Positions 21,195-53,963 are shown, counted from the stretch's first letter. The stretch is DNA of 53,963 nucleotides from Clostridia bacterium (GCA_012840485.1 DULG01000029.1:1-53963), one strand, 5' to 3'. Notes: generated by a model from the letters alone, not told the origin. Numbers and translations are program-made.

Positions 21195-24100
21195 ATGGCA
21201 AAAAGATTGCTAGTTTTTCTTGTAGCTTTTACTTTAGTATTTAGCACTTTTAGCTCTTTTGGCTATTCTCAACAAAAACCGTTGTCAAATCCTTCAAAAA
21301 TTACATTGGATAACTTAAAAATTGATTATGACCTTTTAAAACAAATAGCTCTGAATAAATTTAAAGAAAATCTTAAGACCTATGAGGGCAAATCAAAAAT
21401 TGAAGAAAAATTTGGCAAAGAAATTGAAATTTCAAGAGATGGTGCTCCACGAGAAATTGAAATATATAATCCAAGTGAAACTGTCAGAGTTATTGTAGAA
21501 TTGGAAAAAGATAGCCTTGCGTCTTTTGCGTTAAAGTCTAACAAGACCCTTAAAACTTTAAGTGAAAGTGAAAAAATGGCTGTTTTAAATGAGATAGATA
21601 AGGAACAGTCATTGCTTCAAAACACGTTGGTCAAAAAATTCAATTTTGAGCCGCGACATACATATAAAACTGTTTTGAATGGCATAAGTGGGAAGGTAAA
21701 AGTTAAAGATATAGACAAAATTAAATTGCTACCGGGAGTAAAAGACGTGCGGATTGCCAATGAGTATTTCCTTGATATAACAACAGCAGTTTATTCTACA
21801 AATGCTCCTACTGTATGGAATGAATTGGGATATAAAGGAGAAGGAATGGTTGTAGCTGTTGTAGATACAGGTATTGACTACAGGCATCAGGATATGAAAG
21901 TTTCAGATCCAAGTCGGGTGAAATTGACTAAGGAAAAAGTGCAGCAAATAGCAGCCCAGACAGACCTTCCTTATAAATATTTCACAGATAAAGTGCCGGT
22001 TGGTTGGAACTGGGCAGACAACAATGACGAAATTATAGACATAGGTGCTACACAGTCAATGCACGGGCAACATGTTGCAGGTATAGTTGCAGCAAATGGC
22101 AATATTAAAGGCGTTGCACCAGAGGCACAGCTAATTGCAGAAAAAGTATTTTCAAACAATCCTAATTTTTCATCAGCTTTTTCTGATGACATAATAGCAG
22201 GTATTGACCATGCAGTAGCCTTTGGTGCAGATGTAATAAATATGAGTTTAGGTGCTCCTGCTGGCTTTGTAAGAGAAGATGACCCAGAAAACTTAGCAAT
22301 TAAAAGAGCTGTAGAAAATGGTGTAATAGTAGTAGTGTCTGCAGGAAATTCAGCATATTCTACAAAGGCAGAGTTTTATCCTTATGCGATGGACCCGGAC
22401 ATAGGTACTGTTGGTTCTCCTGGGCTCTTTCTTGATGCTATTCAAGTGGCTGCTTCTATAAATCCTGGACTTACAGGAAAAAGCTTTTCTGTAAATCCTG
22501 CTCCACAAGATTTTGACAGAGTAGTATATTCTGTAGGAAGTCCTACAGACCATGACCCTATTGACCCTGCAGATGTCTTGAAAGGAGAGTATGAGGTAGT
22601 ATACTGTGGATTAGGTAGACCCGAGGATTTTCAAGGTAAAGATGTAGTAGGTAAAGTTGCCCTTATTTCAAGAGGTTCTATTACATTTAACGCAAAGACG
22701 ATAAATGCACAAAATGCTGGTGCTGTAGCTGCAGTAATTTTCAATAATACTACAGGAACAATTTCAATGGCATTAGGAGAAGGTACGAAAATTCCTTCTG
22801 TGTCTATTTTAAGAGATGCAGGTCTTGCAATTAAAGCTTTGTTAGATCAAGGGCAAAAAGTCACAGTAAAATTTGATGGTGCTATAGGAACAAATAAATT
22901 AGGAGTTCCTCCGGGAGACAATGTAACAGACTTTTCATCCTGGGGTGTTACACCAAGCTTTGACTTTAAACCGGAAATAATGGCACCTGGCGGCGGAATA
23001 TATTCAACACTTAACAAAGATTCTTACGGTTTGATGAGCGGTACATCTATGTCATCACCTCATGTGGCAGGTGCAATGGCGTTAATTGCTGAAGCTCTTA
23101 AAGATAAAGTATCTAAAGGTGAATTGACCTTCAAAGATGGCAGAGACTTTGTTGAAATGGCTAAAATAATGGCTATGAATACAGCCAAAGTTATAATTGA
23201 TACAAACGATAATGCTGTTCCTTATACAGGTAAAATCTTAAGAAGTCCTAAGCCTTATTCACCGAGACAACAAGGGGCAGGTATGATTCAAATAGATAAG
23301 GCAATCAAGACACCTGTGACAATTACAGATGCAAATGGAAAAGCAGGTATTGCACTTGGCAGTATTGGGAACAGTGCGACCTTTACCTTGACTCTTAAAA
23401 ATCATAGCAACAGTGATGTTACGTATACCTTAAAGGACGAGTATGGAGTTTTGACAGATTATGTTCTGTGGGGATTTAACTTTGCTGAAACAACAACCCT
23501 TACAGGGGCGACAGTTAAATTTGATAAAGATACTGTGACAGTGCCTGCAAATGGACAACAGACTGTAAATGTCACACTGATAATTCCTCAAAATGCTCCA
23601 CAAAATATTTTTGCGGAAGGATTTTTAAGCTTTATCCCACAGGATAACAATTTGCCAAAACTAAGTGTTCCATATACCGCCTTTTATGGAAGTTGGGATG
23701 AGCTAAGAGTAATAGATTCACCACTTTGGGAAGATGACACTTATTATGGACTTACAGGTATGGCAGGAATTATAAACAATGAATTATATTTCTTGGGAAA
23801 TCTTGGGGGTAGGATACCTGATTCATCTACAATTGCTATATCTCCTAATAACGATGGTGTATTTGACTATGGACAACCAGTGCTATCTTTTTTGAGAAAT
23901 GCAAGAGAGTTTAAAGTAAGTGTTGTAGATGAGAAAGGGAATGTAATAAGAGAAATATCACAAGAAGAATATTTAAGAAAGAACGTTGCAGAAACTTCCA
24001 AGGCGAGAATTTCCGATTCATGGGTATGGGACGGCAAAGCATTTAACCCTGCAACAGGACAATTTGGAGTAGTTCCTGATGGGCAATATTATATGCGCTT

Positions 24101-27100
24101 TGAATCTAAGATAGATTATCCAAATGCAAGGACACAAGTTCTTGAAATGCCTGTTAAAGTTGACACAATATTACCTGAAGTTATGATAAATGATGGCTAT
24201 GTCGATCAATATGGATATTTAAACGAAAATTACATTTCAAACGGAAAAGCAACAGTGGCGTGGGCAGGTAGTGATAAAGGTTCGGGTATAGAGTCCTATA
24301 TTCTAGTTACGGGGAAAATTGACCCTGTGACAGGCAATGTCACAAATATTGAAACAAAATCACTGCCAAGTGATGCTGTTTCAGCAAAAGTAGACCTTCC
24401 AAACTGCTATACATTTATAGCTGTACTTGGTGTAGACTATGCAGGAAATATTTCCGATATAACACCAAAAAATAGCTGTATTGCGTTTAACCCAGAAATA
24501 AAAGACAATTTTGGACCTGTAATTACTGTAAAAGAACCTCAAGTAGCACAAATATTTAATACAAGAGATATTGTTGTTTCAGGAACCATAGAAGATGAGA
24601 CGACATTTATGGGTGAACTCTATATTAATGATGAAAAAGTAACGGTCAATCCAGACAATACTTTCACAACAACAATACATTTTAACAGTGATGGAAAGAA
24701 ACAAATAAAATTCCTTGCATTTGATAATTTGTATGTCCCAAATGACCCATCAACATATGAACACAAGACAGAATTTGCGATACCCATTTATATAGACATT
24801 ACAACACCCGAAATTACTTTAAATGTAGATAATTTCAAAGGCTTTATTTCATCTGAAGGAGTAAGCCTTACAGTAGCAGGCAATGTGTATGATACAGGAT
24901 TTGGATACAAACTGTTTATCAATGGCAACAATATACTTAACAAAGAAGCTGATGATTACACAACATTTAATGATAACTTTACTGCCAGAGTACCTCTTAA
25001 CGTGGGAAATAATATCATTTCGATAAGTGCAGTAGATGTGGCGACTAATAAAGCCGAAGCTACAGTAGCTGTAAATGTATATACTTCAGATACACAAAAT
25101 TACGTTACAATAACCTACAATGGAACACCAAAGACAATACAACTTGAAAAAGTCATGCTTAAGTTGCTTAATGCTAATCCAAATCCACTTTATATACCAG
25201 TTGGGGGAACAGGCAAAATAACCGTTAATGCAATATATACAGACGATACAACAAAAGATATAACAGATAAAGCAGTATTTGAATCTGTATATGGGGACAT
25301 TGCAAAAGTAGAGGATAATGGAATTGTAGTTGGAATGAAGCCAGGTGAGACTACAATAACTGCCACATATGATAATAAATCTGTTGATATAAAAGTTGTA
25401 GTTTCAGAAGCTGTACCATTGGGGATAAGTGTTGACCCGCCATCTATAACAGTTCCAGCAGGCAAAATGGTGCCAATTGCAGTTTATAATCATTTCTCAG
25501 ATGGTAGTCAAGTAGATGTGACTAAAGATGCTAAAATTATAATTGATAATCCTAAAATTGCTCAATACATTAATGGAGTAGTAATAGGGCTAGTAAAAGG
25601 TAGTACAGTACTTACAGCAGTTTATAATACTAATTCGCTTAATGTTCCAGTTACAGTAACAGATCCAATACTTGAAAATATAACAGCACAACCACCTTCC
25701 ATTGAAATAAAAGTTGGAGACACAGCACAACTAAAAGTTACGGCATCCTATTCTGATGGTACAACAAAAGATGTGACGGCAAATGCTCAGTATAATTTTG
25801 ATTCAAATATTGTTACAGTGGATAAAGGAATTGTAAAAGGAGTCAAAGCTGGAACTACAACAATTGAAATAAGCTATAGTGATAAAACCGGTAATAAAAC
25901 TACCAAAGTTAATGTCACAGTAAAAGAAGTACCTTCTTCTGGCGGAGGAGACTTTGTACCAGTGACTCCACCTGCAAGCACTGAACAGCCAAAAGGTGAA
26001 GAGGTATCACAGGGCAAAGTAGTTGTAGAAGGAAATGCAACAACACTTGTAGTTGAAGAGAATAAAGTAACAAATGAAATTAAAGATCCAACAAAGAAAG
26101 AAATAGTATTTGACTTGACCAATGTAGGAGAAACTTCTTCAAAGGCAATAGAAGTACCAGTTAGTGTTCTTAGCTTAATTGCAGAAAACAGCAAAAACAT
26201 AGAAGTAAAATCTAATGAATTTAGACTTATATTTGATGCAAAGACATTGACATTATCAAAAGAAACATTAGAACAGATAGACAAAGCAGGTTCAGTAAAA
26301 TTAACAATAGAAGATAAAGGCAAAAAGGCAGCAAACTTGTTAACACCAGCATCAAATGCCTATGACATAACAATAAAAGCAGGAGACAGCAAAGTAAAAA
26401 TAGACTCACCAGTAAAACTTACATTTGAAGTAAAAGATGCGAAAGACGTAAGGAAAGTTGGGGTATATTATCTAAATGAAACAACAGGAAAATGGGAATA
26501 TGTAGGAGGCAAAATTGACAAAAAAGCAGGGACAATAACTGCAGAAGCAAAACATTTCTCAACCTATGGAGCATTTGAACATGATAAGCAATTTAAAGAC
26601 GTATCAAAAGATTTCTGGGCATATGACGTAATAAATGTCTTAGCATCAAGATATATAGTAAAAGGAATGGATGATGATACCTTTGCTCCAAATGCAAAGA
26701 TAACAAGAGCAGAATTTGCAGCATTGATGATAAGGGCATTAGGTATAGCGGAAGAGCCATATAAAGGTGAATTCAATGACGTAAAAGAAGGAGCATGGTA
26801 TGCAAACGCGATAGAAGCAGCCTACAGAGCAGGCATAATGTTAGGTGATGGGAAGAGCATGAGGCCGGAGGATCCAATCACAAGAGAAGAGATGACAGCA
26901 GTAATAATGAGAGTGTACAGTAAGCTCGCAGATTATAAAGAAGAGAATATAGGGAACACAACTTTTGCAGACAATGATAAGATAAGCGGATGGGCAAAAA
27001 ATGTAGTAGCTAATGCAACGAAACTTGGAATAGTAGAAGGCTATGAAGATGATACCTTCAAGCCAAAAGACAATGCAACAAGAGCAGAAGCTGCCGCTAT

Positions 27101-27137
27101 GCTTTACAGAATATTAGATAAGACAGGTAATATATAA
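21195..27137 (+). CDS. S-layer-anchored subtilisin-like serine protease (S8, PA, Big-type and SLH domains)
   Basis: Very large secreted protease of 1980 residues. Signal peptide (1-26); I9-like propeptide (about 90-185); S8 domain with catalytic Asp224 (VVDTGIDYRHQD), His290 (MHGQHVAG) and Ser618 (MSGTSMSSPHVAG); a PA insert (about 415-560) with NAGAVAAVIFNN, as in C5a-peptidase-type enzymes; an Fn3-like region after 700; three Big-type repeats (about 1325-1405, 1410-1490, 1492-1576); a threonine-rich linker domain; and three C-terminal SLH motifs (about 1800, 1860, 1923). SLH motifs bind pyruvylated wall polymer, so the protease sits on the cell surface, probably digesting external protein or maturing surface proteins. 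Control by sigma-H/Spo0A is suggested. Confidence 0.95.
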   Translation: MAKRLLVFLVAFTLVFSTFSSFGYSQQKPLSNPSKITLDNLKIDYDLLKQIALNKFKENLKTYEGKSKIEEKFGKEIEISRDGAPREIEIYNPSETVRVIVELEKDSLASFALKSNKTLKTLSESEKMAVLNEIDKEQSLLQNTLVKKFNFEPRHTYKTVLNGISGKVKVKDIDKIKLLPGVKDVRIANEYFLDITTAVYSTNAPTVWNELGYKGEGMVVAVVDTGIDYRHQDMKVSDPSRVKLTKEKVQQIAAQTDLPYKYFTDKVPVGWNWADNNDEIIDIGATQSMHGQHVAGIVAANGNIKGVAPEAQLIAEKVFSNNPNFSSAFSDDIIAGIDHAVAFGADVINMSLGAPAGFVREDDPENLAIKRAVENGVIVVVSAGNSAYSTKAEFYPYAMDPDIGTVGSPGLFLDAIQVAASINPGLTGKSFSVNPAPQDFDRVVYSVGSPTDHDPIDPADVLKGEYEVVYCGLGRPEDFQGKDVVGKVALISRGSITFNAKTINAQNAGAVAAVIFNNTTGTISMALGEGTKIPSVSILRDAGLAIKALLDQGQKVTVKFDGAIGTNKLGVPPGDNVTDFSSWGVTPSFDFKPEIMAPGGGIYSTLNKDSYGLMSGTSMSSPHVAGAMALIAEALKDKVSKGELTFKDGRDFVEMAKIMAMNTAKVIIDTNDNAVPYTGKILRSPKPYSPRQQGAGMIQIDKAIKTPVTITDANGKAGIALGSIGNSATFTLTLKNHSNSDVTYTLKDEYGVLTDYVLWGFNFAETTTLTGATVKFDKDTVTVPANGQQTVNVTLIIPQNAPQNIFAEGFLSFIPQDNNLPKLSVPYTAFYGSWDELRVIDSPLWEDDTYYGLTGMAGIINNELYFLGNLGGRIPDSSTIAISPNNDGVFDYGQPVLSFLRNAREFKVSVVDEKGNVIREISQEEYLRKNVAETSKARISDSWVWDGKAFNPATGQFGVVPDGQYYMRFESKIDYPNARTQVLEMPVKVDTILPEVMINDGYVDQYGYLNENYISNGKATVAWAGSDKGSGIESYILVTGKIDPVTGNVTNIETKSLPSDAVSAKVDLPNCYTFIAVLGVDYAGNISDITPKNSCIAFNPEIKDNFGPVITVKEPQVAQIFNTRDIVVSGTIEDETTFMGELYINDEKVTVNPDNTFTTTIHFNSDGKKQIKFLAFDNLYVPNDPSTYEHKTEFAIPIYIDITTPEITLNVDNFKGFISSEGVSLTVAGNVYDTGFGYKLFINGNNILNKEADDYTTFNDNFTARVPLNVGNNIISISAVDVATNKAEATVAVNVYTSDTQNYVTITYNGTPKTIQLEKVMLKLLNANPNPLYIPVGGTGKITVNAIYTDDTTKDITDKAVFESVYGDIAKVEDNGIVVGMKPGETTITATYDNKSVDIKVVVSEAVPLGISVDPPSITVPAGKMVPIAVYNHFSDGSQVDVTKDAKIIIDNPKIAQYINGVVIGLVKGSTVLTAVYNTNSLNVPVTVTDPILENITAQPPSIEIKVGDTAQLKVTASYSDGTTKDVTANAQYNFDSNIVTVDKGIVKGVKAGTTTIEISYSDKTGNKTTKVNVTVKEVPSSGGGDFVPVTPPASTEQPKGEEVSQGKVVVEGNATTLVVEENKVTNEIKDPTKKEIVFDLTNVGETSSKAIEVPVSVLSLIAENSKNIEVKSNEFRLIFDAKTLTLSKETLEQIDKAGSVKLTIEDKGKKAANLLTPASNAYDITIKAGDSKVKIDSPVKLTFEVKDAKDVRKVGVYYLNETTGKWEYVGGKIDKKAGTITAEAKHFSTYGAFEHDKQFKDVSKDFWAYDVINVLASRYIVKGMDDDTFAPNAKITRAEFAALMIRALGIAEEPYKGEFNDVKEGAWYANAIEAAYRAGIMLGDGKSMRPEDPITREEMTAVIMRVYSKLADYKEENIGNTTFADNDKISGWAKNVVANATKLGIVEGYEDDTFKPKDNATRAEAAAMLYRILDKTGNI

Positions 27138-40586: not shown

Positions 40587-40622
40587 GTCTTTGGTATATT
40601 TTTCAGAATGGGAGAGAATTGT

Positions 40623-42470
40623 TTGTATAGGAAGGTTATTATTTATCTAATTATTATGTCACTCGTTTTTAGTTTGATTGGATGTAGTTATGCTGGAAAG
40701 AGAGATATTCTTTCAGGGAATGAGTATGATGTTATTGTAGTAGGCGGTGAACCTGAGGGAATTGCTTCTGCTTTATCTGCAGCAAAAAATGGTGCCAAGG
40801 TGCTTTTAATAGATAAGCATGACGGTTTGGGCGGGCTTATGACATATGGAATGCTTAATTCGCTTGATATGAGCTATGGTCCTGATGGGACTTTACTCAC
40901 ACAGGGGACTTTTAAGGAGTTTTTTGAAGGAATAGGGTCAAAATATTCTTTTGATGTGGAAGAAGCAAAAAAATTGTTTATGGAGATGATTAAAAGATAT
41001 CCAAATATAAAACTTTTTTTAAAGACAGACTTTGCAAAGCCTATTATGGAAGGCAATAAGATAATTGGAGTTGTTACAATCAAGGAGGGCAAAGAGATAA
41101 AATATTATGGAAAGAGAATAATTGATGCTACACAGGATGCGGATGTTGCGGCATCTGCAGGTGTTCCGTATGCTGTTGGAGCAGAGGATATAGGTTTAAA
41201 AGATAAATTTCAGGCTGCTACATTAATTTTCAAGTTAAAGGGTCTTGACTGGGATAATCTTAAAAAAATAATAAATGAAGAGAAAAAAATCCCTGATACT
41301 CATATAGATGATACCTCTGCATGGGGATTTTTGAAAATAACAAAAAATTATGAGCCACATGATTCTCTATTAAGACTTAGAGGATTAAATCTTGGAAGGC
41401 AGGATGATGGGACAGTCCTTGTAAATGCCCTTATAATCTTTGGTGTAAATGGCCTTGATAAAAAATCTATCGAAAACGGGAAACAAAAGGCAGAAAAAGA
41501 ACTTCCTTATATAATAGACTTTTTTAGAAAAAACATTCCCGGCTTTGAGGAAGTAGAATTGGCAGGAATCGCTCCAGAGCTTTACATAAGAGAGACAAGG
41601 CATATAAAAGGATTGTACACACTTGATATAAATGATGTAGTTTTTAACAAAGATTTTGAAGACAGGATTGCAATAGGTTCTTATCCTGTAGACATTCAAC
41701 CTACTTCGCCGGATAATTATGGATATGTTTATGGTACTCCTGCTGAATATTCCATCCCTTTAAGGTGCATTGTACCACAGAAGGTAGAGAATTTACTTGT
41801 TGTGGGGAGGTCTGCTTCATACAGTCATCTTGCATCAGGTTCTGCCCGGACTATTCCTATAGGTATGGCAGTAGGAGATGCCGCAGGAGTTGCAGCAGCA
41901 TATTCTATAAAACACAATCTGTCTTTTAAAGAAATTGCGGAAGATATAAATGATGTTAAGAATATCCAGAAGATATTAGTAAAACAGGGGGCATATTTAA
42001 AGCCTTTTAAAATACATAATAAGGCAGAAGAGCACTGGTCAATAGAAGGTCTTAAATTTGTACTTCACTGGGGACTTTTTCCTTCTGGTTTTAACCCGGG
42101 GTATGACAATAACTACAGATTTGATGAACCTATAAATGGATATGTGTATAACTATATGATGTCAAATATGATTTTAAGAGCAATTCCTTCTAAAAAAGAG
42201 AATGTGTTAAGAGTAAAGGAGCATTTCGAAGAAAAATTTTCAGATAAAAAGACTCCAATAAATAAGTTAGATGCTATGAGAATGCTTTTATCTTATGCAG
42301 GAGTGAAAATAGACACAGAGAAAAAGGTAGAAGGCCTTTTACATGTTGCTTTTAAAAAAGGCATCATATCGGAGGAAGTATATGGCAGGCTTAAAAATAG
42401 TGATATAGTTACATGGGCAGATACTTATGATATTACTAGGTCTTTATATATTTACCTGAGTGAAAAGTAA
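40623..42470 (+). CDS. FAD-dependent oxidoreductase lipoprotein, copy 1
   Basis: About 615 residues. The TTG at 40623 follows GGGAGAG by 7 bases and begins MYRKVIIYLIIMSLVFSLIGC; the lipobox SLIGC predicts a membrane-anchored lipoprotein. An in-frame ATG at 40608 would add five residues but lacks a ribosome site. FAD-binding fold: VIVVGGEPEGIASALSAAKN and LLIDKHDGLGGLMT; later DATQDADVAASAGVPYAVG, and RETRHIKGLY. This is the FAD_oxidored (PF12831) family, whose members are poorly characterised. No Tat motif is seen, so how FAD is loaded outside is unclear. Closely similar to the gene at 45927-47846. Confidence 0.85.
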   Translation: MYRKVIIYLIIMSLVFSLIGCSYAGKRDILSGNEYDVIVVGGEPEGIASALSAAKNGAKVLLIDKHDGLGGLMTYGMLNSLDMSYGPDGTLLTQGTFKEFFEGIGSKYSFDVEEAKKLFMEMIKRYPNIKLFLKTDFAKPIMEGNKIIGVVTIKEGKEIKYYGKRIIDATQDADVAASAGVPYAVGAEDIGLKDKFQAATLIFKLKGLDWDNLKKIINEEKKIPDTHIDDTSAWGFLKITKNYEPHDSLLRLRGLNLGRQDDGTVLVNALIIFGVNGLDKKSIENGKQKAEKELPYIIDFFRKNIPGFEEVELAGIAPELYIRETRHIKGLYTLDINDVVFNKDFEDRIAIGSYPVDIQPTSPDNYGYVYGTPAEYSIPLRCIVPQKVENLLVVGRSASYSHLASGSARTIPIGMAVGDAAGVAAAYSIKHNLSFKEIAEDINDVKNIQKILVKQGAYLKPFKIHNKAEEHWSIEGLKFVLHWGLFPSGFNPGYDNNYRFDEPINGYVYNYMMSNMILRAIPSKKENVLRVKEHFEEKFSDKKTPINKLDAMRMLLSYAGVKIDTEKKVEGLLHVAFKKGIISEEVYGRLKNSDIVTWADTYDITRSLYIYLSEK

Positions 42471-45890: not shown

Positions 45891-45926
45891 AATTAAAATA
45901 GTATGATAATTTTTGAGGTGATAGTT

Positions 45927-47846
45927 TTGAAGAAAAAATACTTTGCAATATTGATGACAGTGATTTTTGGTATGGCTATTTTATTAACATCTGTAGCAGG
46001 TTGCAGTTATAGTAAAAAATGGATATCACAGAAAGGGGAAGATAATTCGAAAGCAGAGGTGATTGAAGAAAGAGAACAATTGCCTCCACCTCCTGATATT
46101 ACACCTCCTAAGGAAAAAGGGGATGAATATGACGTCATAGTGGTGGGGGGTGAACCAGAAGGAGTTGCAGCTGCTGTTTCTGCGGCGAAAAACGGTGCTA
46201 AAGTTTTACTCATAGATAAGCATGATGGACTTGGTGGGCTTATGACCTATGGGATGTTAAATACTATAGATATGAGCCGAGGGCCTAAAGGGGAACTCCT
46301 TACAAGAGGTACTTTTGAAGAGTTTTTTAAAGGGATAGGCTCTGTAACTTCTTTTGATGTGGAAAGAGCGAAGAAAGTATTTCTGAAACTGGTCAAAGAC
46401 CAACCTAATATTACTTTGTCTTTGAATACCATTTTTAAAGAGCCTATCATGGAAGGAGATAAAATTGTAGGTGTTGTAGTAGAAAAAGATGGGAAAAATA
46501 TACGTTATTATGGGAAGAGAGTTATAGATGCTACGCAGGATGCTGATGTTGCGGCGGCAGGTGGTGCCCCTTATACCATTGGTGCAGAAGATATAGGGAT
46601 AAATAGAATTCAAGCTTCTACCCTTGTTTTTAAATTAAAAGGAATTAACTGGAGCGATTTGACCAGGATAATAAAAGAAGAAAAGAAAATACCAGGCACT
46701 TATATTGACTCTACTTCAGCAAATGGCTTTGCTACTATCACCAGAAATTATAAGCCGACCACTGAAATGTTAAGGCTAAGGGGACTCAATGTAGGGAAGC
46801 AAGACGATGGCACAGTATTGATTAATGCACTTTTGATATTTGGTGTTAACGGTTTGGATCCTGAGTCCAAAGCAAAAGGGATGGAATTGGCAAAGGCGGA
46901 GCTTCCTCGTATTGTTGAATTCTTGAAGAAAAATATTCCTGGTTTTGAAAATATATCTCTTGCAGGTACTGCACCAGAGCTGTATGTAAGGGAAACAAGG
47001 CATATAAAGGGGTATTACACCTTGTCTATAACTGATGTAGTTTTTAATAGGGATTTTGAAGATAGAATAGCAATCGGGTCATATCCTGTAGATGTGCAAG
47101 CTACTTCTCCCAATGATACAGGATATGTATATGGCAAACCAGTTCAATATGCTATACCTTTTAGGTGCATTGTGCCACAAAAGGTGGAAAATCTTTTAGT
47201 AGTGGGAAGGTCTGCCTCTTACAGTCATCTTGCGGCAGGTTCAGCACGGACTATACCTATTGGAATGGCTGAAGGTGATGCTGCCGGTGTAGCAGCAGTG
47301 TATTCCATAACAAAAAATAAATCTTATAAGGAAATAATGGCCAATATGGAAGACATAAAAAACATTCAATCAATACTTGTGAGTCAAGGAGCTTATTTAA
47401 AGCCATTTAAGGTAGAAAATCCTGCAGAAAAACACTGGTCTTTTGAAGGGTTAAAATTGGTGCTAACTTGGGGACTTGTTGTACCCGGTTATACAAACGA
47501 CTATAAATTTGATCAGGATATTTCTAGCATTTCTTTCTATTATTTAATATCAAATCTTGTAAAACAAGCCATACCTGAAAAGGCAGATGTTGTAACGGGA
47601 AATGTTTCTGAATTACAAAAGTTTATTGTAAGAGAACCTATAACAAAAAAAAGTGCTGCACAGATACTTTTGACCTACGCAGGATACAAGGATGAGATTA
47701 CTGCAAATGAAGGTAAATTATTTGAACTGGCTCATCAAAAAGGATTAATTTCTGACAAGGCTTACGACCATATGAAGGATAAAAAATTTGTCACATGGGC
47801 TGACACTTATGATATGGCACTGACATTGTATAGAAAGTTGAAGTAG
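45927..47846 (+). CDS. FAD-dependent oxidoreductase lipoprotein, copy 2
   Basis: 639 residues. The TTG at 45927 follows GAGGTGAT and begins MKKKYFAILMTVIFGMAILL, with lipobox SVAGC, so a lipoprotein; an ATG at 45903 has no ribosome site. A Pro/Glu-rich spacer (about 35-65, including QLPPPPDITPPKEKG) precedes the FAD domain (VIVVGGEPEGVAAAVSAAKN). It is a clear paralogue of the gene at 40623-42470 over the whole length, including DATQDADVAAAGGAPYTIG and RETRHIKGYYTL. The two copies bracket a lipid-linked sugar module. The substrate is unknown; oxidation of a surface sugar is possible. Confidence 0.86.
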   Translation: MKKKYFAILMTVIFGMAILLTSVAGCSYSKKWISQKGEDNSKAEVIEEREQLPPPPDITPPKEKGDEYDVIVVGGEPEGVAAAVSAAKNGAKVLLIDKHDGLGGLMTYGMLNTIDMSRGPKGELLTRGTFEEFFKGIGSVTSFDVERAKKVFLKLVKDQPNITLSLNTIFKEPIMEGDKIVGVVVEKDGKNIRYYGKRVIDATQDADVAAAGGAPYTIGAEDIGINRIQASTLVFKLKGINWSDLTRIIKEEKKIPGTYIDSTSANGFATITRNYKPTTEMLRLRGLNVGKQDDGTVLINALLIFGVNGLDPESKAKGMELAKAELPRIVEFLKKNIPGFENISLAGTAPELYVRETRHIKGYYTLSITDVVFNRDFEDRIAIGSYPVDVQATSPNDTGYVYGKPVQYAIPFRCIVPQKVENLLVVGRSASYSHLAAGSARTIPIGMAEGDAAGVAAVYSITKNKSYKEIMANMEDIKNIQSILVSQGAYLKPFKVENPAEKHWSFEGLKLVLTWGLVVPGYTNDYKFDQDISSISFYYLISNLVKQAIPEKADVVTGNVSELQKFIVREPITKKSAAQILLTYAGYKDEITANEGKLFELAHQKGLISDKAYDHMKDKKFVTWADTYDMALTLYRKLK

Positions 47847-48026: not shown

Positions 48027-48051
48027 AGGATTTTTAAAAGCAATGTAGAAT
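48027..48051 (+). promoter_or_regulatory. Sigma-H-type promoter before the ROK regulator
   Basis: AGGATTT (48027-48033), 11 bases, GTAGAAT (48045-48051), preceded by GG. Same spacing and -10 as the sites at 6183 and 20903. Predicted leader about 175 bases. Confidence 0.58.
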
Positions 48052-48234: not shown

Positions 48235-49356
48235 ATGGCTTTTAATAGTAAAGTATCAAAGGAACTGAATAAAGAACTGATTCTATCCTGCATTAAAAAT
48301 GAAGAATTGATTTCAAAAGTTGAAATTTCAAAAATTACAGGAATTAGTTTACCGTCTGTATCAAAAATAGTGGATGAGTTAGTAGAAGAGGGGAAGATAA
48401 TACAATCTGGTATAGGTGATTCATCTGGAGGCAGAAAGCCTGTTCTGTATAAATTTAATAAGAATTTTGGATATTTTAGCACTGTGATTATTAATAAAAG
48501 TGATATGAACATTTATTTGATGAACTTATACGGTGATGTTATTGCAAAAGATAAAATAAATATAAATGGTGCAGATGGTAATGATTTAGTATTTTCTATT
48601 GTTAGCGGAATTACGCGTATTTTAAGCAATTATAACATATTTGTTGACAAACTTTTAAACATTTGCATAGCTGTACCCGGATATTTTGATTATGCTGAAA
48701 ATAAATTCTTAATAAAAGGAATACCATCTCTAAAAGATGTTGATTTACATGAAAAATTAAGTAAAAAATTTCCGAATGTTAAAATTAAATTTACAAGTGA
48801 CATTCATATGATGGCACTTGGGGAATGGTCAAAAATAAAGAATAAAGCCGAAAAAAAGAGGATTGTTGTAATAGATATAGACAGAGATTTGAGAGAGAAT
48901 GCTTGTTTTGCAATTATAGATAGCGGAAACATATTAAAACCGGGAAGAGGATACCTTGGAAGAATCGAAGAAAGTATGATATCTTTAGTTGATATTAATA
49001 TATTGAAAAAAAACGGGTACGAAGAAATCGGGAAATTAATTAATGATTTTAAATCTAAGAAAATAAGGGCTATAAACCTTTTAATGAATTTAGTGGATTT
49101 TTTAACAAAAATAATAAAACATATACAGCATTATATAGATCCAGATTTCATTATATTTCACGGCTATATAGGACATCAAGGCTTAATAGATATTGTTAAA
49201 ACAAGGCTTCAAGGAGATAATTTGTTATGTGATATTCAGAAATCACTGCTAGACGAAGAATCTACATTATATGGTTGTATAGAGGAGACGCTATCATCTT
49301 TATTTAACCAGTATGAAATGCCTATAAAAATCCACAATGTGGATTTTTATAAATAA
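48235..49356 (+). CDS. ROK-family transcriptional regulator with degenerate sugar-kinase fold
   Basis: 373 residues. The N-terminal winged helix is typical of ROK repressors (NagC/XylR): ILSCIKNEELISKVEISKIT and GISLPSVSKIVDELVEEGKI, then the GGRKP linker. The C-terminal ROK fold is recognisable (AVPGYFDY), but the ATP loop that is usually GTGIGAG reads DRDLREN here, and the zinc motif CGxxGCxE is absent. It therefore probably senses a ligand without kinase activity. It is the first gene of the transporter/DUF4127 operon and the likely local regulator. Confidence 0.83.
   Translation: MAFNSKVSKELNKELILSCIKNEELISKVEISKITGISLPSVSKIVDELVEEGKIIQSGIGDSSGGRKPVLYKFNKNFGYFSTVIINKSDMNIYLMNLYGDVIAKDKININGADGNDLVFSIVSGITRILSNYNIFVDKLLNICIAVPGYFDYAENKFLIKGIPSLKDVDLHEKLSKKFPNVKIKFTSDIHMMALGEWSKIKNKAEKKRIVVIDIDRDLRENACFAIIDSGNILKPGRGYLGRIEESMISLVDINILKKNGYEEIGKLINDFKSKKIRAINLLMNLVDFLTKIIKHIQHYIDPDFIIFHGYIGHQGLIDIVKTRLQGDNLLCDIQKSLLDEESTLYGCIEETLSSLFNQYEMPIKIHNVDFYK
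49326..49348 (+). repeat. 23-bp palindrome at the end of the ROK gene
   Basis: AAAAATCCACA (49326-49336) and its complement TGTGGATTTTT (49338-49348) flank one central base, ending 28 bases before the transporter start. It may be an operator for the ROK protein, or a terminator-like hairpin with its own T-run. Both fit the sequence. Confidence 0.55.
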
Positions 49357-49376
49357 AAATTTAAGGGGGTTTTTTT

Positions 49377-50672
49377 ATGAGTTTTCAAGGTATTTTAATT
49401 ATTTTGGTTTTTGGTATTTTTGCGTACTTAATGGTGACGCAGAAAATGCCTGCTCTTCTGGCATTACCTTCAATGGCTATTATCATTAGTATAATAGCCG
49501 GTATGCCAATAAATTACATTTTTTCTAACATAATTGGAGGCGGTGCAGTAAGGCTTCAAGGAGCTATTTCAGCCGGAATATTTGGCGCTATTTTAGCACA
49601 GGTGATTAATAAGACAGGGATATCTGATAATATAGTAAGAACCGCAGCTGAACTTGGAGGTGATAAACCAATTGCAGTTGCATTAGTAATAACATTGGCA
49701 GTTGCAATAATGTTTACTTCTCTTGGTGGACTTGGATCAGTGATTATGGTAGGTACAATTGTATTACCTATTATGATTTCAGTAGGGATTAAACCTATTG
49801 TAGCTGCTTCGCTGTTACTTATGGGCTTGAATTTGGGTGGATTATTTAATATTGCTAATTTTGCGTTTTATCAAAGTGCTTTGAACCTTGATATGGCAAC
49901 AATAAAAAGTTTTTCACTAGCATTTGGAATAATAGCGGCAATTATTACTCTTATATTTATTTTTACCAATGTTCCAGCAAGGAAAACTGTTACTGCATGG
50001 GCAATGCCAACACAAGATTTTGAAAAAAAAGTCAAAGTACCATGGTATGCACTTTTAACACCTATTGTACCTGTTGTATTACTTTTTATATGGCCTTTGA
50101 TTTTCAAGGATGCCAAAGGTAATCCTATTCAAATAGATATTGTATCAGCCATGTTAATAGGTATTCTTTATGGTATTTTAACTACAAAACCAAAAGAGAT
50201 AAAAAATATTCTTACAAGCTCAATTGTGGAAGGAATAAAAGATGTTGCACCGGCAATTGGCTTAATGATAGGGATAGGTATGCTTTTACTTGCTGTAATG
50301 GATAAGTCAACGGCTGCATTGGTTTCACCTATTATTTCAAAAATTTTACCTTCAAGTAAGATTGTATATATACTACTTTTTACTATATTATCGCCTTTAG
50401 CACTTTACAGAGGACCATTAAACTTGTATGGATTGGGGAGTGGTGTTGCTGCTATCATGATTTCTGCAGGGATACTGCCACCGGCAGCTATTATGGGTGC
50501 GATGATTGCTACAGGTAATGTTCAAGGCGTATGTGATCCTACAAATACTTATAATGTATGGATAGGGTATTTCACAAATACAGATACTTCAACAATATTG
50601 AAGAAAACCTTGCCATATATGCTGATTGTTGTTTTGCTAGATCTTGTATATGTAGCATTTTTTAAATGGTAA
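49377..50672 (+). CDS. CitMHS/GntP-like carboxylate transporter
   Basis: 431 residues with about 11-12 predicted membrane segments and a central cytoplasmic loop (about 200-220). Glycine-rich re-entrant-like segments LGGLGSVIMVGTIVLPIMIS and GLNLGGLFNIANFAFYQ are typical of the ion-transporter superfamily of citrate, gluconate and dicarboxylate carriers. Substrate cannot be told; its place before the DUF4127 and hydantoinase genes makes it the likely uptake system for their substrate. AAGGGGG precedes the ATG. Confidence 0.75.
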   Translation: MSFQGILIILVFGIFAYLMVTQKMPALLALPSMAIIISIIAGMPINYIFSNIIGGGAVRLQGAISAGIFGAILAQVINKTGISDNIVRTAAELGGDKPIAVALVITLAVAIMFTSLGGLGSVIMVGTIVLPIMISVGIKPIVAASLLLMGLNLGGLFNIANFAFYQSALNLDMATIKSFSLAFGIIAAIITLIFIFTNVPARKTVTAWAMPTQDFEKKVKVPWYALLTPIVPVVLLFIWPLIFKDAKGNPIQIDIVSAMLIGILYGILTTKPKEIKNILTSSIVEGIKDVAPAIGLMIGIGMLLLAVMDKSTAALVSPIISKILPSSKIVYILLFTILSPLALYRGPLNLYGLGSGVAAIMISAGILPPAAIMGAMIATGNVQGVCDPTNTYNVWIGYFTNTDTSTILKKTLPYMLIVVLLDLVYVAFFKW

Positions 50673-50678
50673 AAAATC

Positions 50679-50698
50679 GGGGGGTTGCATATCCCCCC
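50679..50698 (+). terminator. G6/C6 hairpin between transporter and DUF4127 gene
   Basis: GGGGGG (50679-50684) pairs with CCCCCC (50693-50698). No T-run follows, so partial termination or message protection is more likely than full stop. Confidence 0.5.
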
Positions 50699-50736
50699 TA
50701 TGCTGTTATAGTCATGTTTAAGAGGGGGTAAAAAAG

Positions 50737-52242
50737 TTGTTAAATATAGCATATATTCCGCTTGATAATAGACCATGCAATTGTGATTTTGTGTTAAAAG
50801 CTGCAAAAATTAAAGGAATGAATATTATTGTACCACAAAAAGAAAAACTTGGGGAATTCATGAAGTATGGAAATGTAGATTGTATAAAAAACTGGTTAAT
50901 AAACCTTCGAAATATTGACTATCTTATTTTATCTATAGATATGTTAGCTTATGGTGGTTTAATTGCAAGTAGAGAAATGGAGTTAAATGTTGATCCGTAT
51001 GGGTTTGCAGAATCTGTTAGAGAGTTTAAAAAGAATAATAGTAATTGCAAGGTATATGCCTTTAATATAATTATGAGAACATCTATAAGTGTGAAAGACG
51101 AAAAAACATATGAATATTGGAAACTGATTAATGAATATTCTTCCCTAGCTTATAATGAACACGAAAATTTTAGTAGAATAAAAGAGCTTGAAAAGATAAT
51201 TCCTAAGTCTATTCTTGATGGTTATTTAAAAGCCAGAAGACGCAATCATGAAGTTAATAATATCTCAATTGATTTGGTAAATGAGGGAGTAATAGATTTT
51301 TTGGTTTTAGGTCAAGAAGATTGTGATAAAATAGGAATTCACCTTTTAGAGCAGGAAAGACTGCTTACAAAAATAAGAGAATTAGGTCTTGAAGAAAAGA
51401 TAATGATGATGCCAGGTGCTGACGAGTTTGGTCAGATTTTATTTGTAAGGGTATTGAATGATATTTCAAGAATGAAAATTGGAAGGTTAGTGTATGATAA
51501 TGATCGTCTAAAATATGTAGTAGCACAATACGAAAACATACCAATTTACGAAACTTTAGATTTGCATATCAAAGCCGCTGGTTTTGATATAAATGAAGTA
51601 AATGATCAGATAATTTTATATATAATAACGCCTAAAATATTTGATGACATTATTTGGATTGATGATGACCATTATAAATATCTTGAAGGTGTTAAAGCCG
51701 AAGATGTTTATATAAATGATGAAGAACTAGATGCCTATATAAAAAATCACAAAATTATAATATTTGATTTATGTCATGCCAATGGAGGTTGGAAAGAACT
51801 TATTTATTTTCTTTCGGAAAACGACCTATTGCATGAGATATATGGATATACAGCCTGGAATACGACTTCAAATAGTATTGGGACAGGACTCTTATTTTAT
51901 GCTTTGTTATATGAAGAGAATAAGGACAGTAAATTATTTCTTGAATTTCTTATAGAAAGGTTTTATGATGACTTTTTATACCAAAGCATAGTTCGTTCAA
52001 GGATAAATGAAATCTTACAAAGAGAAGGAGAAAATGTTCATTTCTTTAGATTGTTTAAATACAATTATAATATGATATTATGTGAACTTATGAAAAAACA
52101 TGATGAGATTATTAAGAAATCAATATTAAGTAAACCCATTAAGATTTTAGAAAATTTGCAAATAAAAGATTATCACATTGAATGCTCTTTTCCATGGAAT
52201 AGGACATTTGAAATAAAAGTAGATGTTAAAGTTCAAATATAA
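50737..52242 (+). CDS. DUF4127 family protein
   Basis: 501 residues. Recognised as DUF4127 from the start IAYIPLDNRPCNCDFVLKAA, LSIDMLAYGGLIASRE, VLGQEDCDKIGIHLLEQ and MMMPGADEFGQILFVRVLND. No function is established for this family. Conserved Asp, His and Asn positions (DLCHANGGWKEL, AWNTTSNSIGTGL) suggest an enzyme. It begins with TTG behind AGAGGGGGT and is co-oriented between a carboxylate-type transporter and a TIM-barrel plus hydantoinase gene, so it probably takes part in breakdown of the same compound. Confidence 0.82.
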   Translation: MLNIAYIPLDNRPCNCDFVLKAAKIKGMNIIVPQKEKLGEFMKYGNVDCIKNWLINLRNIDYLILSIDMLAYGGLIASREMELNVDPYGFAESVREFKKNNSNCKVYAFNIIMRTSISVKDEKTYEYWKLINEYSSLAYNEHENFSRIKELEKIIPKSILDGYLKARRRNHEVNNISIDLVNEGVIDFLVLGQEDCDKIGIHLLEQERLLTKIRELGLEEKIMMMPGADEFGQILFVRVLNDISRMKIGRLVYDNDRLKYVVAQYENIPIYETLDLHIKAAGFDINEVNDQIILYIITPKIFDDIIWIDDDHYKYLEGVKAEDVYINDEELDAYIKNHKIIIFDLCHANGGWKELIYFLSENDLLHEIYGYTAWNTTSNSIGTGLLFYALLYEENKDSKLFLEFLIERFYDDFLYQSIVRSRINEILQREGENVHFFRLFKYNYNMILCELMKKHDEIIKKSILSKPIKILENLQIKDYHIECSFPWNRTFEIKVDVKVQI

Positions 52243-52267
52243 ATTTTTTTAGAGGAGTGATATTATT

Positions 52268-52948
52268 ATGAGATTGATTGAAAGGTTAAAAAGCAATAAA
52301 ATGACACTTATTGTAAGCCTTCCTCAAAATACTTTAGAACTTGCTTTGGCTGCAGTCAATGGTGGGGCTGAGGCAATTAAAGTGCACACAAATGTGTTTC
52401 ACAGAGCAAGTGGTAATAGATTCCCTAAGCTATCAGAGCAATTAGATATTCTTGAGGAAATTGTGAGAAAGGTAAACATACCTGTAGGCATTGTGCCAGG
52501 GGGAGATGAATCATGTATTGAAAAAGATGAAATTAAAATATTAAAAGACATTGGCTTCGATTTTATATCAATGTTCGTTCATCACATGCCTTTATATATC
52601 TATAAATCAGGATTTACAATAATGTCCACAATAACAAAAGATTATACAGTTGATGAAATAAGGACATTAAACTATTTAGATGTTGATATAATTGAAGCAG
52701 ATATGTTGCCAGATGATAAAAAAAAGATTATTCATTTGGCAGATTTGCTGAGGTATAGGAAAATAGTTGAATCTGTTAGTAAACCTGTAGTTGTACCTAC
52801 TCAAAGGATTATCCTGCCGGAAGAAGTAGAAGACCTTTATAATATTGGTGTTAGAGGTTTTATGATTGGCGCCATAGTTACGGGTAACAGTCCAAAACAA
52901 GTAGAAAGAGTTACAAGTGAATATAGAAAAGCTATCGACAGGCTTTAA
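52268..52948 (+). CDS. Small TIM-barrel protein of unknown activity
   Basis: 226 residues with alternating beta/alpha pattern of a TIM barrel (LIVSLPQNTLELALAAVNGG, EAIKVHTNVFHR, VPVGIVPGG-like strand, FISMFVHHMP, DIIEADMLP, VVVPTQRI) and a C-terminal phosphate-binding-like loop GVRGFMIGAIVTG. It resembles phosphate-binding barrels such as NanE or KDPG aldolase in outline only; no exact family was recognised. Positions 26 bases after DUF4127 and 28 before the hydantoinase gene indicate one operon. Confidence 0.7.
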   Translation: MRLIERLKSNKMTLIVSLPQNTLELALAAVNGGAEAIKVHTNVFHRASGNRFPKLSEQLDILEEIVRKVNIPVGIVPGGDESCIEKDEIKILKDIGFDFISMFVHHMPLYIYKSGFTIMSTITKDYTVDEIRTLNYLDVDIIEADMLPDDKKKIIHLADLLRYRKIVESVSKPVVVPTQRIILPEEVEDLYNIGVRGFMIGAIVTGNSPKQVERVTSEYRKAIDRL

Positions 52949-52975
52949 TGTGATTTTTAGAAGGAGGAGATAATA

Positions 52976-53963
52976 TTGAAAGTAAGAATCGGGATAGATG
53001 TTGGAGGAACATTTACAGATGCGGTTGCTATAGATAATGACACTTATGAATTAATAGGGACAATAAAGGTACCTACGACACATACTGCGAAAGAAGGTGT
53101 TGCAAAAGGTATTATAGAAGCTCTTATAGAACTCATGAAAGAACACAATATAGGTCCAGAAGATGTCCTATTTATAGCCCATGGTACAACACAGGCAACA
53201 AATGCCTTATTAGAAGGTGACGTTGTTCCTGTTGGCATTATAGCTGCAGGTAAAGGGCTTGAAGGAATTAAAGTAAAAAGCGATACAAATATACAGGATA
53301 TAGAACTTGCGCCAGGCAAGATATTAAAAATTGCAAATCAATATATTGAATTAGAGGACGAATTTGAGGATAACGTGGAAATGAAAATTGAGGACTTCAA
53401 AAGGCAGGAGATAGGAGCAATTGTCGCTGCACAGGCTTTTTCAGTTGATGATCCAACAATTGAGAATAAAATAGTAGACATTGTAGAGCAAAAAGGGCTT
53501 CCAGCGACGGCAACACATGAAATAACAAAGCTATATGGATTAAGAATAAGGACAAGGACTGCAGCAATAAACGCATGTATACTTCCCAAAATGATAGAGA
53601 CAGCAAACATGACAGAAGAAAGCGTAAAAAAATCCGGCATAAAAGCACCTCTCATGATAATGAGAGGCGATGGTGGAGTAATGAATATAGCGGAAGTGAG
53701 GAAAAGGCCCATACTAACACTTCTTTCAGGGCCTGCTGCAGGTGTAGCAGGAGCTTTGATGTATGAAAAAATATCTGACGGCATATTCCTTGAAGTTGGT
53801 GGAACAAGTACAGACATATCTGCAATAAAGACAGGTAAAGTAATGGTAAACTATGCAGAAATCGGTGGGCATAAGACTTATCTTAACTCCCTTGACGTAA
53901 GAACGGTGGGAATAGCAGGAGGGAGCATGGTAAGGCTTGGTGACAAAGACATAGAAGACGTTG
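52976..53963 (+). CDS. Hydantoinase/oxoprolinase family protein (HyuA-type), 3' end outside window
   Basis: The TTG at 52976 follows AGGAGGAG by about 6 bases and opens a frame that runs off the window (at least 329 residues; the family is usually 500-700). The N-terminal actin-like ATPase signature RIGIDVGGTFTDAVAID, then IAHGTTQATNALLEG, GLRIRTRTAAINACILP, LMIMRGDGGVMNIAEVRKRP, LSGPAAGVAGALMY and LEVGGTSTDIS are diagnostic. The family cleaves cyclic amides with ATP (5-oxoproline, hydantoins) or carboxylates ketones. It has no partner HyuB visible; it may lie beyond the window. Confidence 0.9.
   Translation, partial: MKVRIGIDVGGTFTDAVAIDNDTYELIGTIKVPTTHTAKEGVAKGIIEALIELMKEHNIGPEDVLFIAHGTTQATNALLEGDVVPVGIIAAGKGLEGIKVKSDTNIQDIELAPGKILKIANQYIELEDEFEDNVEMKIEDFKRQEIGAIVAAQAFSVDDPTIENKIVDIVEQKGLPATATHEITKLYGLRIRTRTAAINACILPKMIETANMTEESVKKSGIKAPLMIMRGDGGVMNIAEVRKRPILTLLSGPAAGVAGALMYEKISDGIFLEVGGTSTDISAIKTGKVMVNYAEIGGHKTYLNSLDVRTVGIAGGSMVRLGDKDIEDV

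Follow-up and report, generated by a model that had tools for sequence, protein, structure and literature searches.

The window, that is, the whole stretch of DNA analysed here, has 53,963 nucleotides and is one complete contig (G000:C4) of a Clostridia bacterium genome of 2.65 Mb in 91 contigs. Its final part (48235-53963) carries five co-oriented reading frames on the + strand, all of them present at the place where the initial annotation had put them (Table 1). They are separated by gaps of 20, 64, 25 and 27 nt, and each start has a purine-rich (AGGAGG-like) site just 5′. Both the reading frames and the family scans agree with the initial annotation, in which a co-oriented set of five genes with short gaps had been described. 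Likewise, its non-kinase ROK regulator was confirmed, as this protein exceeded the cut-offs for the ROK domain (36.7 bits, cut-off 22.9) and for an N-terminal HTH_24 domain (31.3 bits), and the kinase-type motif CxCGxxGCxE was not found in its sequence. The permease scored 21.5 bits with Pfam DcuC (PF03606; cut-off 23.1) and 52.5 with NCBIfam DcuC_1 (cut-off 100), and by these scores it is related to DcuC yet outside the curated family. A promoter scan of the operon gave no excess over shuffled sequences.

Table 1. Positions of the genes and elements of the operon, its relatives and its surroundings.
Feature	Sequence	Position	Strand	Basis or remark
ROK-family transcriptional regulator, winged HTH and ROK domain	window	48235..49356	+	family scan; also heads the operon in L034
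DcuC/ion-transporter-type permease, divergent	window	49377..50672	+	just below the Pfam DcuC cut-off
DUF4127 (PF13552) protein, 501 aa, no evident signal peptide	window	50737..52242	+	460 bits
(beta-alpha)8 barrel, predicted phosphate-binding superfamily (TrpA/ThiE/RPE/KDPG-aldolase-like), 226 aa, no Pfam family	window	52268..52948	+	predicted structure
HyuA-type ASKHA ATPase, first 329 of about 715 residues	window	52976..53962, open at contig end	+	family scan
24-nt element GGATTTTTAAAAGCAATGTAGAAT	window	48028..48051	+	5′ of the operon; same element 5′ of the sister operon on C87
Copies of the 24-nt element	window; C87; C91	window 48028-48051; G000:C87:33157-33180; G000:C91:28178-28201
Full-length HyuA of the congener	L034	L034:6154-8301
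Secreted 672-aa protein with Ig-like domains	L034	L034:12180-14198
Flavoenzyme gene with large internal deletion (L242)	C22	G000:C22:24856-25076
Third HyuA-zincin operon of the genome (L241)	C8	G000:C8:36000-55999
Paralogous putative lipoproteins with PF12831 domain	window	40608-42470 and 45903-47846
1980-aa subtilase, apparent SLH repeats at its end	window	21195-27137		read from sequence

The match of the DUF4127 protein to PF13552 lies over the curated cut-off and covers model positions 1-488 of 489; a second paralogue is encoded on contig C59 of the same genome. The branch to which the window's protein belongs has about 30% identity to the others, and it is found with a DcuC-type permease and HyuA, not with a sugar ABC transporter. 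Neither a sequence search of the PDB nor a fold search with the predicted structure (pLDDT 86, pTM 0.90; E < 1e-3) gave any match. The best VIA Z, obtained over the first 250 residues with SGNH-type esterases and sugar-binding proteins, was 8.9, which is close to the noise range, and no fold is therefore claimed. Its invariant residues include D10, R12, D195, D229, E230, E266, D344 and N375, which could form an active site. A search of one literature collection found no paper naming DUF4127 or PF13552.

The fourth gene had been annotated initially as an unassigned TIM barrel, which its model (pLDDT 95) bears out, being a (beta-alpha)8 barrel that reaches the cut-off of no Pfam family. A candidate assignment as NanE epimerase (PF04131) was rejected (16.3 bits, cut-off 27). 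The best VIA Z was 22, to the TrpA homologue BX1 (rmsd 2.5, 219 aligned residues), and the model suggests that the protein belongs to the phosphate-binding barrels. It resembles TrpA, ThiE, RPE, KDPG aldolase and NanE in its predicted fold and in a conserved loop, rich in glycine, that follows strand 8. However, it differs from the known phosphate-binding barrels by its low identity (14%), by the lack of a Pfam family and by having invariant residues of its own (K37, H39, H44, E142, D158, G200 and G205; alignment A4).

The first 329 residues of HyuA contain the domains Hydant_A_N and Hydantoinase_A (97.9 and 145.2 bits, cut-offs 25.2 and 22.9). HyuA has in common with CapAB, 5-oxoprolinase and HyuAB the HyuA-type ASKHA ATPase with these two domains and the DxGGTxxD motif, its phosphate-1 motif being DVGGTFTD. 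In the phosphate-2 motif, described as DxGGT with its Asp corresponding to D295 of CapA (PMC8453981), Asp is replaced by Glu (EVGGTSTD); ExGGT was present in 39 of 39 readable HyuA sequences, some of which are the same locus counted twice. In addition, a GxxPGP-type motif was unrecognisable in the HyuA sequences. Both observations suggested that the use of ATP may differ from that of CapA.

HyuA is short in the window because the contig ends within hyuA, where a repeat lies. A sister operon with the order regulator–barrel–permease–HyuA is located on contig C87, and it breaks at the same HyuA residue. The terminal 127 nt are identical between C4 and C87. Likewise, contigs C20 and C22 agree with each other in their first 127 nt, which lie at the end of the zincin gene (see below). 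Shared contig ends of this kind are the signature of a collapsed repeat, and the 127 nt are most likely the assembly word. The flavoenzyme gene is intact on C20, and on C22 the copy directly after the zincin gene has a large internal deletion that leaves 51 codons, so that it is likely to be a pseudogene. Synteny with relatives, judged from the genes that precede the operon on C87 and those that follow the flavoenzyme on C20, places these two contigs together, and the window would thus be continued by C22.

The complete operon was found in a congener (L034), in the order regulator, secreted protein with Ig-like domains, permease, DUF4127, barrel, HyuA (715 aa), a 176-aa protein here called zincin, and a PF12831 flavoenzyme. 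The secreted protein is absent from the window. That the gene set and its order are kept argues against a chance grouping of these genes. The HyuA-type enzymes described as opening highly stable amide rings with ATP have a HyuB partner, and the initial annotation had suggested looking for HyuB and kinases beyond the end of the window. However, HyuB was absent from the complete L034 operon and its family (PF02538) gave 0 matches in the whole genome of the window. Therefore, the classical chemistry of hydantoinases and oxoprolinases cannot be assumed for this operon.

The zincin gene lies beyond the end of the window. In relatives, its product has a HExxH...E arrangement in which the invariant Glu is found 34 residues after the second His of HExxH; H123, E124, H127 and E161 are invariant across 13 diverse members, and there are five invariant residues in total. 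This residue plan is that of a zinc metallohydrolase, probably gluzincin-like, and the Pfam cut-off was reached by no family. Each of the 13 HyuA-type barrel loci whose contig runs far enough has zincin. A search of 398 Bacillota genomes with the zincin alignment gave 21 positives, and HyuA and a DcuC-like permease adjoin zincin in nearly all of the loci fetched from this search. Several HyuA-zincin operons lack the barrel (L241, L249-L251, L253 and L255), and the regulator found with HyuA-zincin may be of the ROK, GntR or LacI type.

The barrel alignment was scanned against 84,980 species genomes and yielded 93 relatives and 80 loci, mostly in Bacillota and also in Spirochaetes, Armatimonadota-like bacteria, Chloroflexi, Margulisiibacteriota and Actinomyces. 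The presence of genes was counted by six-frame HMM searches, because ORF calling misses genes in GC-rich loci. The PF12831 flavoenzyme was found at 60 of the 80 loci. DUF4127 was found at 30, always on the same strand and within 800 nt in 25 cases, and HyuA at 14, all of them with a DcuC-type permease. The barrel and the flavoenzyme are thus common to two modules, barrel–DUF4127–flavoenzyme and DcuC–HyuA–zincin. Barrel and flavoenzyme loci, with or without DUF4127, usually have ABC sugar transporters, whereas HyuA-zincin is accompanied by DcuC and often by sugar-acid genes (KDG kinase, KDPG aldolase). Among the genes at loci of the DUF4127 type are those for sugar ABC transporters, NanE, GH84 and GH3, and hexosaminidase-type genes are often found there. 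The arrangements include two-component system–SBP–barrel–ABC–flavoenzyme in Paenibacillus; LacI–DUF4127–barrel–flavoenzyme with GH3; GntR–SGNH esterase–barrel–DUF4127–flavoenzyme, one of them with NanE; and, in Thermoanaerobacterium-type loci, DUF4127–flavoenzyme with a GH84 hexosaminidase, an ABC transporter, NanE, a ROK kinase and GNAT. At five Armatimonadota/Hebobacteria-like loci (L167, L171, L180, L188 and L191) the barrel gene has a DnaJ-domain gene on one side and a gene of the ABC exporter type on the other, and in these genomes DUF4127 is located elsewhere, where tested.

DUF4127 was detected in 33 of 44 barrel-positive genomes; among the relatives of the window's genome, 38 of 149 have it. 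It was missing from 8 of the 15 barrel genomes with a firm zincin and from 3 of the other 29 (Fisher p 0.003, a kind of value that overstates independence because the genomes are related). Zincin/HyuA and DUF4127 tend to stand in for one another and hence look like alternative inputs to the barrel and flavoenzyme pair. The operon of the window has both. DUF4127 and HyuA share one operon in five lineages: the window's genus (window and L034), Lentibacillus (L122), Caldibacillus (L140), Erysipelothrix (L194) and G369/L259, with gene orders that differ between lineages. The initial annotation, for which a failure of these two genes to co-occur elsewhere would have counted as refutation, is thus not refuted on this point. 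Nevertheless, the main partners of DUF4127 are the barrel and the PF12831 flavoenzyme. As steady partners DUF4127 and HyuA were rejected, HyuA being present at only 3 of the 30 DUF4127-bearing barrel loci.

Regarding the substrate, a third HyuA-zincin operon of the window's genome, L241 on contig C8, contains KDPG aldolase, a KDG-kinase-like kinase, 3-hexulose-6-phosphate synthase and 6-phospho-3-hexuloisomerase, and is adjoined by KdgT, D-threonate-kinase-like and PdxA2-like genes. In L094 and L252, the barrel and flavoenzyme genes are preceded by KDG kinase, aldehyde dehydrogenase, a CuyA-like lyase, an RraA-type aldolase and an amidohydrolase. These sugar-acid genes point to the catabolism of acid sugars. 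The HyuA-zincin-DcuC units thus resemble known acid-sugar operons (KDG kinase/KDPG aldolase, D-threonate DtnK-PdxA2) in lying inside or beside them, although the operon of the window differs in having no KDG kinase or aldolase. The guess of the initial annotation, peptidoglycan or pyroglutamyl material, found no specific support, as the neighbours are the sugar-acid genes at HyuA loci and sugar ABC transporters, NanE, GH84 and GH3 at DUF4127 loci. A search of the same literature collection for muramic lactam with hydantoinase found no paper.

The interpretation in the initial annotation was thus borne out in part: its undescribed catabolic-type operon was supported by these data. The operon combines two modules, neither of them described before, in one hybrid, the HyuB-less HyuA being its most surprising part. 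In the explanation that we tentatively prefer, giving it a little less than an even chance, the operon is inducible and serves for uptake and catabolism, HyuA and zincin work together as an ATP-dependent hydrolase without HyuB, and DUF4127 is an alternative or second entry enzyme. The ROK protein would be the repressor and the DcuC-like permease would import the substrate, most likely a small organic acid, an acid sugar or an amino-sugar derivative. HyuA would spend ATP in activating it, and zincin, not HyuB, would carry out a metal-assisted hydrolysis that opens a lactam or cleaves an amide, in a role comparable to that of the CapB zinc site. The flavoenzyme would oxidise the product and the phosphate-binding barrel would isomerise or cleave it. 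DUF4127, which would usually feed the barrel and the flavoenzyme in sugar-ABC operons, would here be combined with the HyuA route. In caprolactamase, the ATP site is in CapA and an essential zinc site is in CapB, and the activated lactim has been proposed to pass from the former to the latter (PMC8453981). By analogy, activation by HyuA and hydrolysis by zincin would be the simplest reading, and an ATP-driven opening of a cyclic amide, with a zincin-like protein replacing HyuB, is possible. It is more doubtful whether HyuA and the HExxH protein, a zinc protein unrelated to HyuB that would have taken its place, represent a new two-part ATP-dependent hydrolase in an undescribed pathway for acid sugars or amino-sugar acids, with the non-homologous DUF4127 feeding the same barrel and flavoenzyme. 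It counts against the preferred explanation that HyuA, with its altered phosphate-2 motif and without a recognisable GxxPGP-type motif, may use ATP differently, that zincin might be a peptidase or a regulator instead of a subunit, that the sugar-acid context comes mostly from HyuA-zincin operons of a type other than the window's own, and that only the deleted flavoenzyme seems to be left in one sister operon, by synteny the window's copy.

The main alternative, which we regard as rather unlikely, is that HyuA alone phosphorylates the substrate, as do its kinase-like relatives acting on acetone, acetophenone and bicarbonate, with the barrel taking the phosphorylated product and zincin being non-catalytic in this step. 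The HyuA subunits of carboxylases are indeed substrate kinases (PMC8453981), the ASKHA phosphate-1 motif is kept, and the superfamily and glycine-rich loop of the barrel would suit such a product. However, this leaves unexplained the zincin at every readable HyuA-type barrel locus, and some HyuA-zincin operons lack the barrel; it carries somewhat more than half the weight of the reading in which HyuA activates and zincin hydrolyses. Zincin could also be a regulatory or housekeeping metallopeptidase that controls the operon, DUF4127 having been captured by chance. Its HExxH with a downstream Glu resembles the motif plan of ImmA/IrrE, it reaches no Pfam cut-off and, as indicated above, about half of the zincin-positive barrel genomes lack DUF4127. 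Nevertheless, a protein that follows HyuA under ROK, GntR or LacI regulators is unlike a repressor-specific protease, and the fact that DUF4127 has joined HyuA operons in five lineages, with gene orders that differ, argues against chance capture, which makes this alternative distinctly unlikely. Finally, the classical HyuAB pathway proposed initially, which would act on a cyclic amide, on 5-oxoproline or on material from peptidoglycan and have its HyuB immediately beyond the end of the window, agrees with the HyuA domain scores and with the operons shared by DUF4127 and HyuA across several genera. Its HyuB part is largely refuted by the L034 operon and the window's genome, and the neighbouring enzymes belong to sugar and sugar-acid metabolism, so that it is very improbable.

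In relatives, the operon shares with CapAB, 5-oxoprolinase and HyuAB a hydrolase motif of the zinc type in a gene adjacent to that of HyuA, and it differs from them in having zincin, with its HExxH...E, instead of a HyuB/CapB gene. If the preferred explanation is true, a widespread lineage in which HyuA has no HyuB and is always accompanied by a small protein resembling zinc hydrolases would have solved the same chemistry in a new way. DUF4127, a large uncharacterised family, gains two firm partner genes, those of the barrel enzyme and the flavoenzyme, and a sugar-catabolic setting, by which its function becomes directly testable.

A 24-nt element is located 5′ of the operon. It had 9 matches in the genome with up to 2 mismatches, versus 0 for the reversed control, and it was exact at both sister operons and at one further place. 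It contains TGTMGAAT, which resembles the Spo0A box. Further 5′ of the operon, the window encodes two putative lipoproteins that are paralogues of each other and have a PF12831 flavoenzyme domain. They may be exported relatives of the flavoenzyme of the operon, and the operon's copy of that gene may itself be deleted. Elsewhere in the window a large subtilase is encoded (Table 1).
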